Shown here in pieces: positions 314 to 64,000 of a stretch of 64,000 nucleotides of DNA (position 1 is the stretch's first letter; each line of letters starts with the position of its first letter). The stretch is taken from the NCBI RefSeq assembly GCF_000152985.1, contig NZ_CH672395.1, positions 2,370,262 through 2,434,261 of the forward strand, given 5' to 3'. The notes under the pieces are model-generated. The model searched no databases, was not told the DNA's origin, and saw only the letters and a list, made by a program, of their open reading frames with translations. This DNA comes from Leeuwenhoekiella blandensis MED217 (GTDB taxonomy: Bacteria; Bacteroidota; Bacteroidia; Flavobacteriales; Flavobacteriaceae). Both the position numbers and the translations under genes were made by a program.

Positions 314-1141
314 ATGCGTTTATCCCTTTCTATTCTTATTACAAGTTTAATTTTAGCTAGCTGTGGTTCGGTGAAGAAAGAGAACATCGAGTATTTAGAT
401 ACGGACTATGAAGCTTCCGCAGAAGCTCCTGAGCTTAATATTTTTCAGCCTAAAGATTCTCTTGTGGCTCACGATGTGCTGATTTTTGTTCACGGTGGAA
501 ACTGGAACAGCGGAAATAAAAACACCTACTCGGTACTCGGGCGCAACTTTGCAGGCAAAGATTACCTCACCGTCATTCCCGGCTATACGCTGAGTCCGTA
601 TGCGAATTATGATCAGATGACTCAAGAAATTGCCAAAGCCATCAAATGGACGCACGACAACGCCGAAAAATATGGAGGCGATCCCAACCGAATCTTTTTA
701 ATGGGGCATTCTGCAGGTGGTCATCTTGCTGCACTGGCTGCTATGAATCCTAAATATTTAGAAAACACAGATTATATAAAAGGAATTATTCTCGACGATG
801 CAGCCGGACTCGATATGTATTCTTATTTGCAAGAAAATCCTCCAGGTGAAGAGGAGTATTACAATGTGACTTGGACCACCAATCCCGAAGAATGGAAAAA
901 CGCTTCGCCTTATTATTTTTTAGATGAAAATACACCGCCTATTTTGACCTTGTTGGGGACTAAAACCATTCCGTCACTTTATTATTACAATGATTTATTT
1001 CATAATAAACTGCTCGAGTTTCAGCCTGAAGCGCCACTGCTCATTATGAATAAAAATCATACGGCGATGGTGACGCAATTCTTCAATCCGTTGAGTAAGT
1101 ATTTTAAAGAAATTCAAAATTTCACCTCAAGTATTGAGTAA
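314..1141 (+). CDS. alpha/beta-hydrolase lipoprotein (BD-FAE / carboxylesterase-like)
   Basis: This is a 275-residue serine esterase of the alpha/beta-hydrolase fold. The N-terminus reads MRLSLSILITSLILASCGS, a type II signal peptide with lipobox LASC, so the mature protein is probably a lipoprotein. The oxyanion-hole motif HGGNW and the nucleophile elbow GHSAGG are both present; a C-terminal His (NKNHTAM) and Asp residues could complete the triad. This resembles kynurenine-formamidase and feruloyl-esterase-like enzymes (BD-FAE), but the substrate cannot be read from sequence. An in-frame TTG lies 30 bases upstream at 284; I chose the ATG because it starts the signal peptide directly. The gene is followed by a dispersed repeat and a terminator. 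Confidence 0.8.
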   Translation: MRLSLSILITSLILASCGSVKKENIEYLDTDYEASAEAPELNIFQPKDSLVAHDVLIFVHGGNWNSGNKNTYSVLGRNFAGKDYLTVIPGYTLSPYANYDQMTQEIAKAIKWTHDNAEKYGGDPNRIFLMGHSAGGHLAALAAMNPKYLENTDYIKGIILDDAAGLDMYSYLQENPPGEEEYYNVTWTTNPEEWKNASPYYFLDENTPPILTLLGTKTIPSLYYYNDLFHNKLLEFQPEAPLLIMNKNHTAMVTQFFNPLSKYFKEIQNFTSSIE

Positions 1142-1260
1142 ACTGCCTCCGGGCAAGCCTATCTACCGACAAAGGCAGGCCCACAAGACATTGGTTGAAA
1201 ACGAATTTTTAATTTCGAGACAAGCCGTGGAGTATCAAATCGTTTTGGTGGCGCCAATAA
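1142..1260 (+). repeat. dispersed intergenic repeat, copy A
   Basis: About 119 bases between the esterase stop and a terminator. It shares with copies B (41099-41194) and C (33985-34090) the order AAACTRCCT at the left edge, a GGGCAAG segment (A and B), a GAAAAC/GAAACAAA segment, TTTTTAATTTC-like text, GGAGTATYAAA-like text and the right edge CCAATAAAAAA running into the terminator. Copy A has an extra segment around 1160-1184 that includes ACAAAGGCAGGCC. Read on the minus strand, the order is ndh stop, terminator, repeat. Confidence 0.7.
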
Positions 1261-1290
1261 AAAAGGGACAGTAAAAACTGTCCCTTTTTT
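1261..1290. terminator. bidirectional intrinsic terminator between esterase and ndh
   Basis: AAAAGGGACAGT pairs perfectly with ACTGTCCCTTTT around a four-base A loop. A and T runs flank it on both sides, so it can stop transcription from the plus-strand esterase and the minus-strand ndh. Confidence 0.85.
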
Positions 1291-27701: not shown

Positions 27702-27737
27702 AAAAGCCCGATCAATTCGATCGGGCTTTTCTATTTT
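27702..27737 (+). terminator. intrinsic terminator after rplT
   Basis: AAAAGCCCGATC pairs perfectly with GATCGGGCTTTT around a five-base loop and runs into CTATTTTTT. Confidence 0.9.
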
Positions 27738-27775
27738 TTAATATCAGCGTTAAAGGATTCAATAATTTACCTTTC

Positions 27776-28180
27776 TTACTTCCAATTAAAAATGATTTCC
27801 TTTTCCATATCTGGATGAAGACTGTTCAACACAGGGCAAGTTTTTGCAGTGTTCTCCAAAATTTTCTTTTCCTTTTCAGTCTGCACTCCTTGTAAATTGA
27901 GTTTAATTTCTACCCTTGCAATTCTTCTAGGCTCTGCCTTCATTATTTTGGTAACTTCTGCAGTCGAACCTTTAAGTTCAACGCCTTTCATCTGCTTCGC
28001 CTTAATCCCCATCACTGTAAGCATACAACTAGCTAATGCAGTCGCTACCGTATCTGTGGGCGAGAAAGCTTCTCCTTTTCCATTATTATCAGTAGGAGCA
28101 TCAGTTATGAATTTGTCACCAGATTTCACGTGTTCACATTCGGTACGCAAATCACCAAGATAAATCACTTTACTCGTCAT
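27776..28180 (-). CDS. OsmC-family peroxiredoxin-like protein
   Basis: This 134-residue OsmC/Ohr-fold protein reduces organic hydroperoxides in characterised relatives. The two catalytic cysteines are present: Cys52 in ALASCMLTVMG and Cys115 in AKTCPVLNSL, with SPTDTVATAL before the first. It starts four bases after the stop of the LysM lipoprotein gene and is the last gene of a guaA-lysM-osmC series on the minus strand. The YhfA-like OsmC subfamily, rather than true Ohr, fits best. Confidence 0.87.
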   Translation of the reverse strand: MTSKVIYLGDLRTECEHVKSGDKFITDAPTDNNGKGEAFSPTDTVATALASCMLTVMGIKAKQMKGVELKGSTAEVTKIMKAEPRRIARVEIKLNLQGVQTEKEKKILENTAKTCPVLNSLHPDMEKEIIFNWK

Positions 28181-33866: not shown

Positions 33867-33984
33867 AGATTTTTTTAGTTAATGTTGTTTCTAAAATGCA
33901 TAACGCAAATAGACTTCAAAAATTTTAAATGAATAGTTAGGACTATACTGAAATCTAAATAGCATTTCTTTAATAAAAATAGAA

Positions 33985-34090
33985 AAACTACCTAGATACA
34001 AAGAAGCCTTCGTGAGAAACAAACTTTTTATTTCAAGACATCCCGATAACTATCGGGACGCAGTATTAAACTCGTTGAAGTTACCAATAA
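33985..34090 (+). repeat. dispersed intergenic repeat, copy C
   Basis: It shares with copies A and B the left edge AAACTACCT, the middle GAAACAAAC and TTTTTATTTC-like text, AGTATTAAAC, and the right edge CCAATAAAAAA running into a terminator. The centre carries an inserted inverted repeat at 34041-34058 not present in A or B. On the minus strand it follows the aconitase terminator. Confidence 0.6.
34041..34058. repeat. 18-base inverted repeat inside copy C
   Basis: TCCCGATA-AC-TATCGGGA is a perfect 8-base inverted repeat around two bases. In copies A and B the same place is occupied by only a few unrelated bases, so this looks like a separate small insertion or a stem exchanged within the repeat. 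Confidence 0.7.
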
Positions 34091-34123
34091 AAAAAACCAA
34101 ACCACGAGTAGTGATTTGGTTTT
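34087..34123 (-). terminator. intrinsic terminator of the aconitase gene
   Basis: On the minus strand AAAACCAAA and TTTGGTTTT form a 9-base stem, extended by three pairs past one mismatch, and the U-run is uninterrupted. It starts 20 bases after the aconitase stop. Confidence 0.75.
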
Positions 34124-34143
34124 AATTCAACTTAAAAATAAGC

Positions 34144-41079: not shown

Positions 41080-41098
41080 ATTTCAGAATCTTCGAAAT

Positions 41099-41194
41099 AA
41101 ACTACCTCAGGGCAAGTCCATGAGGCATTGCTTGGAAACAAATTTTCAATTTCGATGCAAGCCTCGGAGTATTAAACCCTTTGGCGGTGTCAAT
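41099..41194 (+). repeat. dispersed intergenic repeat, copy B
   Basis: This is the cleanest copy: AAACTACCTCAGGGCAAG at the left, a CCTCA...TGAGG hairpin, GGAAACAAATTTTCAATTTC in the centre, GCCTCGGAGTATTAAACCC, and a right edge GTCAATAAAAAA leading into the guaB terminator. On the minus strand the order is guaB stop, terminator, repeat. Confidence 0.75.
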
Positions 41195-41229
41195 AAAAAA
41201 ACCGGTAGCAAATGCTACCGGTTTTTTTT
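41195..41229. terminator. bidirectional terminator between ompH and guaB
   Basis: AAAAAAACCGGTAGC pairs perfectly with GCTACCGGTTTTTTT around a four-base loop. Confidence 0.9.
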
Positions 41230-63218: not shown

Positions 63219-64000
63219 ATGAAACTTTTTCAGTGTACTAATTGTAAGAATCCGGTGTATTTCGAAAATACAACCTGCGAAAAATGCGGTAATAATTTGG
63301 GCTACTTCAATACAATTGAAGAAATTCTTTCCTTCCCTGCAGCAAGCAAAACAGTTTATAGTCCGTTACAGCAAGGGAGCGCACTCACCTACTGCGCCAA
63401 TCACAAGCACAATGCTTGCAATTGGCTGGTTTCTACCGAAAGTGGCACTTCTTTTTGTGAAGCTTGTAGTTCTAATCGAACTATTCCCGATTTGAATGAT
63501 GCAGAGAATAAACTGGATTGGCAGAAAATTGAAACAGCAAAACATCGCTTATTTTACTCACTTCATAAACTGAAGCTTCCTACAAAATTCAACATTAATG
63601 ATCAACCGCTGAATCTTAGGTTTGATTTTTTGGCTCCAGATCCTAACAATCCTTCTGCCATAAAAACAGGACACGCAAACGGATTGATAACACTTAATAT
63701 TCAGGAAGCCAATGCAGCACATAGAGAATACATCAAAGAGCAACTTTCAGAACGCTATCGAACGCTTTTGGGGCATTTTAGACACGAAGTTGGTCACTTT
63801 TACTGGGAAGTTCTAATTCAGCCTAACCCAAAAAATCTAGATGAATTTAGAGCTCTTTTTGGTGATGACACTCAAGACTATGCTGCAGCCTTGCAAGCGC
63901 ATTACAAAAATGGCGCACCCGTAAATTGGCGTGAAAATTACATCAGTAGTTATGCGACCATGCACGCTTGGGAAGATTGGGCAGAAACTTGGGCGCACTA
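63219..64000 (+). CDS. zinc-ribbon metallopeptidase (Peptidase_Mx-like), 5' part, cut by the window end
   Basis: The frame is open from ATG 63219 to the end of the window (260 codons). It starts MKLFQCTNCKNPVYFENTTCEKCG, a zinc ribbon with paired CxxC motifs, followed by further Cys pairs (YCANHKHNACNW and CEACSSN). The catalytic region has HEVGH at residues 189-193, and GLITLNIQEANAAHREYIKEQL before it. The later YATMHAWEDWAETWAHY segment supplies the third ligand region. This resembles the bacterial putative zinc-binding metallopeptidase family. A possible -7 element (TACATTTA, 63187-63194) is upstream. Confidence 0.8.
   Translation, partial: MKLFQCTNCKNPVYFENTTCEKCGNNLGYFNTIEEILSFPAASKTVYSPLQQGSALTYCANHKHNACNWLVSTESGTSFCEACSSNRTIPDLNDAENKLDWQKIETAKHRLFYSLHKLKLPTKFNINDQPLNLRFDFLAPDPNNPSAIKTGHANGLITLNIQEANAAHREYIKEQLSERYRTLLGHFRHEVGHFYWEVLIQPNPKNLDEFRALFGDDTQDYAAALQAHYKNGAPVNWRENYISSYATMHAWEDWAETWAH

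Follow-up and report, generated by a model that had tools for sequence, protein, structure and literature searches.

The window analysed here is a 64,000 nt stretch of the Leeuwenhoekiella blandensis MED217 genome (contig NZ_CH672395.1, positions 2,370,262 to 2,434,261). It contains three intergenic sequences that resemble each other and that each lie against the intrinsic terminator of a minus-strand gene, raising the question of what this repeat is and why it is found at terminators. A preliminary description had proposed either a small non-autonomous mobile element that targets terminator tails or a 3'-trailer element under selection. The repeat is very probably a palindrome-associated transposable element (PATE), a non-autonomous, ends-only relative of the IS200/IS605-family transposons that inserts on the lagging-strand template. 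The mobile element is thus upheld by empty sites, hairpins near both ends, similarity to IS200/IS605-type ends and orientation relative to replication, but the targeting of terminators only in part, and repeats at terminator tails can be tied to a simple target rule (a T-run plus AT), not to a regulatory role.

Copies in the window and distribution of the family

The three stretches are copies of one repeat, as had been suggested, since all were recognised by R1, a covariance model built from 30 copies of the L. blandensis genome, copies A and C among them; copy B was not used in building it. Pfam domains agreed with the genes named for the adjacent minus-strand reading frames, namely NDH-2 (ndh), aconitase (acn) and IMPDH (guaB). 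In all three copies the right edge runs into a terminator-like stem, read from the sequence and, for copy C, also by a terminator scan. The edges themselves were shifted to 1138-1256, 33983-34086 and 41097-41192 using clean empty sites elsewhere, and the CAATAAAAAA edge turned out to be mostly target (ATAAA on the plus strand, TTTAT on the minus strand) plus T-run. The features of the window are:

1138-1256, minus strand: copy A, long form of 119 nt (R1, 92.4 bits)
1257-1261, minus strand: TTTAT target of copy A (sequence; target set by empty sites at other copies and the left-end logo)
1265-1284, minus strand: ndh terminator stem, whose T-run supplies the target (sequence by eye; NDH-2 domain)
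33983-34086, minus strand: copy B, diverged (R1, 22.8 bits, E 0.0014 within the window)
34087-34091, minus strand: TTTAT target of copy B (sequence)
34092-34125, minus strand: aconitase gene terminator, approximate limits (sequence by eye; aconitase domains)
41097-41192, minus strand: copy C, near-consensus, 96 nt (R1, 130.5 bits)
41193-41197, minus strand: TTTAT target of copy C (sequence; left-end logo)
41195-41228, minus strand: guaB (IMPDH) terminator, bidirectional, its A/T-run overlapping the target (terminator scan; IMPDH domain)

In transposon orientation, copy A has its left end at 1256 and its right end at 1138, and bears an additional palindrome within the right-end hairpin. The alpha/beta-hydrolase gene on its other side (ORF 284-1141) takes its TAA stop (1139-1141) from copy A, because the element starts with GTAAAC on the plus strand. 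Copy B, a diverged variant, differs in a hairpin tip; its left-end hairpin holds a CCCGATAACTATCGGG palindrome. Elsewhere in the window, a weak R1 match at 27737-27831 (minus strand; 17.9 bits, E 0.029) could be a decayed copy or chance, and three still weaker matches were found at 63562, 51715 and 10134.

The element is about 98 nt long; on the window's minus strand it reads 5'-TGGCACCGCC...GAGGTAGTTTAC-3'. R1 gave 139 matches in the L. blandensis genome (G000; E<=1, weakest 0.015), which is a floor because 150 of 2480 candidates were scored and the diverged copy B is missing from the set; an earlier similarity search with copy C as query gave 43. Patterns for the right and left ends matched 106 and 71 times, respectively, and reversed control patterns not once. 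The 139 matches comprise 68 plain copies near 103 nt, 26 near 58 nt, 6 shorter than 48 nt and 10 of other lengths, while 29 bear one or both of two extra palindromes inside a hairpin.

Within the genus Leeuwenhoekiella, 12 of 13 genomes (G000 included) contained 1 to 100 matches each, the exception being G009 with none (100 candidates scored per genome). At the same depth, only one of 27 relatives outside the genus had matches (G013, with 6). In the wider Flavobacteriaceae, matches were found in 76 of 397 genomes and 61 of 237 genera (E<=1e-4; 10 candidates scored per genome), so the element accounts for a dispersed repeat in about a fifth of the genomes sampled from this family. PATEs as a kind are already known, going by the accessible parts of PMC3119063 and PMC7290912, and the present family is a new and widespread one of IS200/IS605 type. 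A search of the open-access literature at abstract level (titles and abstract openings) found no earlier description of the family, of IS200/IS605 PATEs in Flavobacteriaceae, of the target rule or of the presence at terminator tails, which does not prove that none exists.

Target sites, empty sites and terminators

On the strand opposite to that of the preliminary description, the consensus reads TTTAT/TGGCACCGCC AAAGGGTTTAATACTCCGAGGCTTGCCTCG ... GCCTCATGGGCTTGCCCTGAGGTAGTTTAC/T, with slashes at the element boundaries. The five positions of the TTTAT left flank have logo conservation values of 0.91, 0.95, 0.96, 0.83 and 0.96; the right-end logo was built from the 83 of 139 copies with an exact GTTTA. 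Inspection of the left end (TGGCACCGCC) and the right end (GTAGTTTAC) revealed no terminal inverted repeats.

In sister species, three clean empty sites place the insertion 3' of TTTAT, with flanks that join without duplication or loss. At 4228562, G006 reads TTTTTTTAT/TGAGTATATTTG and L. blandensis reads TTTAT/element/TGACTATATTTG; at 98062, G006 reads GCGTTTAT/TCATAAGC and L. blandensis GCGTTTAT/element/TCATCAAAG. At 4008623, a double copy in L. blandensis, G011 reads GTTTTTCT/TGAAATAAA, with TTTCT in place of TTTAT. For 24 copies both flanks could be aligned in relatives; few of these gave clean empty sites, and the others are shared, ambiguous or diverged. Copies 2544161 and 2500053 are also present in G006, and 4228562 in G011; because 2544161 is shared with G006 and absent from the closer G011, losses or repeat insertions must occur.

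For the window copies, the place of copy B in all 11 relatives compared keeps the terminator without the element (8 of the 11 read CAATAAAAAAACC), and L. blandensis has about 55 further unexplained bases alongside this copy. In 10 of the 11 relatives with a terminator at the corresponding place, copy C was not seen, and G002 and G004 have a second terminator there. The remaining relative, G005, has an element-like sequence 3' of guaB, between two terminators (L213).

Some copies are arranged in head-to-tail tandems with overlapping ends (G000:C1:1889401-1889692, 4055882-4056017 and 4008623-4008731), as if a target beside an old copy had been re-used. Their junctions, in which GTAGTTTA of one copy is followed by TTGGCACC of the next, fit such re-use.

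The repeat is short, non-coding and dispersed, as a classical MITE of a DDE insertion sequence would be. That reading is refuted by the ends, which have no terminal inverted repeats, and by the empty sites, which show no target duplication; with an orientation that is moreover linked to replication (see below), its probability is close to nil.

The repeat had been described as always abutting a terminator. This holds for the three window copies, but genome-wide a strong hairpin directly before a T-run was found on the left-end side of 53 of the 139 copies (61 with a looser cut-off) and on the other side of 4. This comparison took in all 139 matches, and among TTTAT controls the same configuration occurred at 64 of the 460 intergenic sites and 31 of the 2190 genic ones. 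When three Ts precede TTTAT, the hairpin is present in 16 of 24 element copies and 14 of 23 control sites, and when four Ts precede it, in 21 of 24 and 14 of 21, respectively. The excess of hairpins is gone at matched T-run length; therefore the preference is for the T-run (plus AT), and the hairpin comes along. The proposed targeting of terminator tails is thus borne out as to the TTTAT site and the enrichment at long T-runs, but not as to the hairpins, which are no commoner than in T-run-matched controls.

Of the 52 terminator-adjacent copies, 43 follow a gene that is read toward them, as in the reported order of stop codon, terminator and repeat; of the 82 others, only 26 do (134 of the 139 copies have both neighbours; genes for the context, order and hairpin counts were script-called ORFs of at least 90 codons). 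Recent-looking copies from the genomes G048 and G283 (n = 20) include 5 with such a hairpin and 18 in intergenic positions.

Group IIC introns insert behind terminators. A derivative of such an intron was rejected as an origin of the repeat, given that there was no Rfam match (ribozyme core, domain V) to the element in seven loci and that the ends differ by inspection.

Hairpins and orientation relative to replication

An alignment of 30 rows supported three hairpins, located at the left tip, in the inner left part and at the right end, so that near-terminal palindromes are present at both ends. Changes affected both sides of 11 of 20 pairs, compared with 5.4 pairs in shuffles that leave the relatedness of the rows in place; the counts of cells were 28 and 8.7. 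Paired cells amounted to 86.9% vs 81.0% in shuffles, and every slid version was lower, in a comparison that favours the structure because it was taken from one aligned row (L359). The rows were 26 from 25 other genomes plus 4 from L. blandensis; the alignment excludes L377 and L365, the latter nearly identical to L364. Within the L. blandensis genome covariation is weak, with one of six predicted pairs changed on both sides.

The right hairpin consists of five pairs, one unpaired base, four pairs and a TT loop. Single L. blandensis copies folded poorly as DNA, with z values of -0.54, -2.02 and -0.68 in the orientation of the preliminary description. In transposon orientation, L359 (z -2.92) formed the right hairpin and L353 (z -2.26) did not, and the right end of the L. 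blandensis copy L004 gave no fold. In other Flavobacteriaceae, a subfamily (L370-L376 and L081) has a left tip hairpin of CTCGATAATCGAG or similar, not TTGGCACCGCCAA.

Hairpins were also found to differ at the same site between species. Copy A has a short, ends-only form at its orthologous place in G011, and at 4228562 G011 has a CCCGATAGCTATCGGG palindrome in place of the left hairpin tip. A search for the tip palindromes (<=3 mismatches) in 460,810 sampled bases, a sample biased to element loci, gave 27 hits inside R1 matches and 2 outside, both of which were parts of copies, one being copy B.

The transposon strand lies on the lagging-strand template in 113 of the 139 copies, with breakpoints near 0.02 and 1.96 Mb, and none of 5000 permutations with floating breakpoints matched this bias. 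In the stretches sampled, GC skew tends to be positive over the first 2 Mb and negative in the rest, although single bins deviate. The bias was seen in the terminator and non-terminator classes alike, and in each of four gene-orientation strata (35/42, 19/24, 38/44 and 18/24), which omit 5 of the 139 copies (3 inside ORFs and 2 without both neighbours). Neighbouring genes do not account for the orientation bias, since a small majority of them lies on the opposite strand (201 vs 255). In G048, a division into two arcs accounts for 17 of 17 copies (p 0.0024), and the GC skew pooled over 15 loci has the same relation to orientation, although single loci deviate; G127 gave no orientation signal (14/20, p 0.94). 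For 22 IS605 tnpA genes of Halanaerobium, PMC7290912 describes no bias of this kind, so replication-coupled orientation is not universal.

These data also bear on the second of the original proposals, a 3'-trailer or RNA element held by selection at gene ends. All three window copies are behind terminators, and the hairpin covariation could be explained by RNA too. Against this, only 53 of 139 copies are at terminators, copies are present in some relatives and absent from others at orthologous sites, orientation tracks replication and not genes, and no Rfam match to the element was found in the seven loci searched. The 3'-trailer was therefore abandoned as very unlikely.

For the PATE, a single-strand route of transposition can be inferred. 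The transposon strand would be exposed as single-stranded DNA when it serves as the lagging-strand template, allowing the hairpins to fold. The cuts, one behind the left-end TTTAT and one behind the TTTAC of the right end, would be made by a Y1 tyrosine transposase supplied in trans; the element would then leave as single-stranded DNA and be pasted 3' of another TTTAT on the lagging-strand template, without duplication. Terminator tails (a T-run then AT) would offer many target sites, and insertion just beyond the T-run would leave the terminator intact. The more than 100 insertions in the L. blandensis genome would thus form a natural record of single-strand transposition, with an orientation that reports fork direction.

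IS608 and ISDra2 have TTAC and TTGAT as targets. Like the element, they have subterminal secondary structures and insert 3' of a target of four or five nucleotides in the lagging-strand template (PMC5371812, PMC7290912 and PMC6006769), but they are autonomous and use other targets. The PATEs of Haloquadratum walsbyi, as presented in the accessible part of PMC3119063, share more with the element: they are non-coding, occur in many copies, have neither inverted terminal repeats nor target duplication, carry near-terminal palindromes related to IS605-type ends and contain other small mobile elements. The present element differs from them in its Flavobacteriaceae host, its length of ~98 nt, its TTTAT target and a third hairpin right at the left tip, and in that a matching transposase was not found.

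Related transposons and candidate enzymes

Sister species carry Y1 transposases, and three of these (L183, L184 and L324) score above the NCBIfam cut-off for IS200/IS605. The L184-type transposons share with the element a GGTTTAATNC..CG left-end hairpin and a right-end hairpin plus GGTAGTTYA, and in L184 and L324 a one-base bulge is predicted in the right-end stem, as in the element. End similarity was evaluated with 200 shuffles per test in 18 of 30 L184-type loci, 25 of 80 TGGTCTCA-type loci and 8 RAYT-like loci. In the L184 type it was significant (p<=0.01) for the left end of 8 and the right end of 7 of the 18 loci, vs 3 and 1 in wrong-place controls and 0 of 18 in wrong-strand controls, indicating ends that are similar, not identical. 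The TGGTCTCA group gave only 1 of 25 significant left ends and 0 of 25 right ends. In this group, where left ends were readable in 54 of the 80 loci, TTTAT directly precedes 40 of the 54 and a strong hairpin lies ahead of 10.

By eye, TTTAT also precedes the left ends of L325 and L332, and L324 lies behind a terminator, like some copies of the element, whereas the L184 type mostly has TTTAAT before its left end. L325 has GGTTTAATACNNCGAGGCTTGCCTCG and TTTAT in common with the element, with no right end seen, and the gene of L332 has in-frame stops. All these Flavobacteriaceae IS200-type transposons (L184, L324, L325, L332 and the TGGTCTCA group) differ from the element in carrying tnpA, and in their outer left end and most stem sequences.

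No intact Y1 transposase was found in the L. blandensis genome, whose sole PF01797 hit (13 bits, with a stop) is below the cut-off. PF01797 matches (E<=0.01) were present in 7 of 12 copy-rich genomes, and none of the 10 loci inspected, out of 18 in these genomes, had a transposase with exactly the ends of the element. With three Y1 proteins as tblastn queries, regions around unpaired ends, among the matches listed, yielded no hit (E<=1) that would reveal a long autonomous copy. The missing enzyme could be explained by loss after a burst, by a divergent gene that was missed or by an enzyme of an unrecognised kind.

A domesticated REP-associated tyrosine transposase (RAYT), moving a REP/REPIN-type palindrome, would belong to the same enzyme superfamily, and the element is likewise intergenic, present in high copy number and furnished with hairpins. 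Some sister species have RAYT-like genes, and L187, the one tested, passes the NCBIfam RAYT cut-off. However, the L. blandensis genome has no PF01797 match over the cut-off; the RAYT-like genes L186, L187 and L191 of sister species have another palindrome, of the CGCGATTGTATCGCG type, repeated around them, no linked RAYT flanked by the palindromes of the element being found; and none of the eight RAYT-like loci had flanks matching the element ends. Nor does copy number track RAYT, given that G009 has 0 copies despite its RAYT-like gene, while G000, G003 and G006 have 139, 74 and 85 element matches and no PF01797 match (E<=0.01). A RAYT-driven origin is accordingly improbable. The tag of REP sequences is at the 5' foot of the palindrome. 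In the element, GTAG sits 3' of the right-end hairpin, not 5'; the available text of PMC3733652 places the REP tag, GTAG (or CGTC), 'at one end' of the palindrome.

Somewhat less improbable, yet still a minority reading, is that the repeat represents an orphan single-strand family, still amplifying in G048, in which hairpin tips are exchanged or inserted in place by tip palindromes that, in the DNA sampled, lie only within the element. The ten best copies in G048 have a mean identity of 98.3%, compared with 87.6% in L. blandensis (nine of the ten best, one differing in length), and G048 gave no PF01797 hit at E<=0.01. The 98%-identical copies in a genome where no recognisable Y1 transposase was found would point to an unrecognised enzyme. 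For the PATE reading, mobilisation in trans by a Y1 transposase is the step that we infer. A SAM riboswitch was observed near one of the G048 copies (L359:2-115, minus strand).
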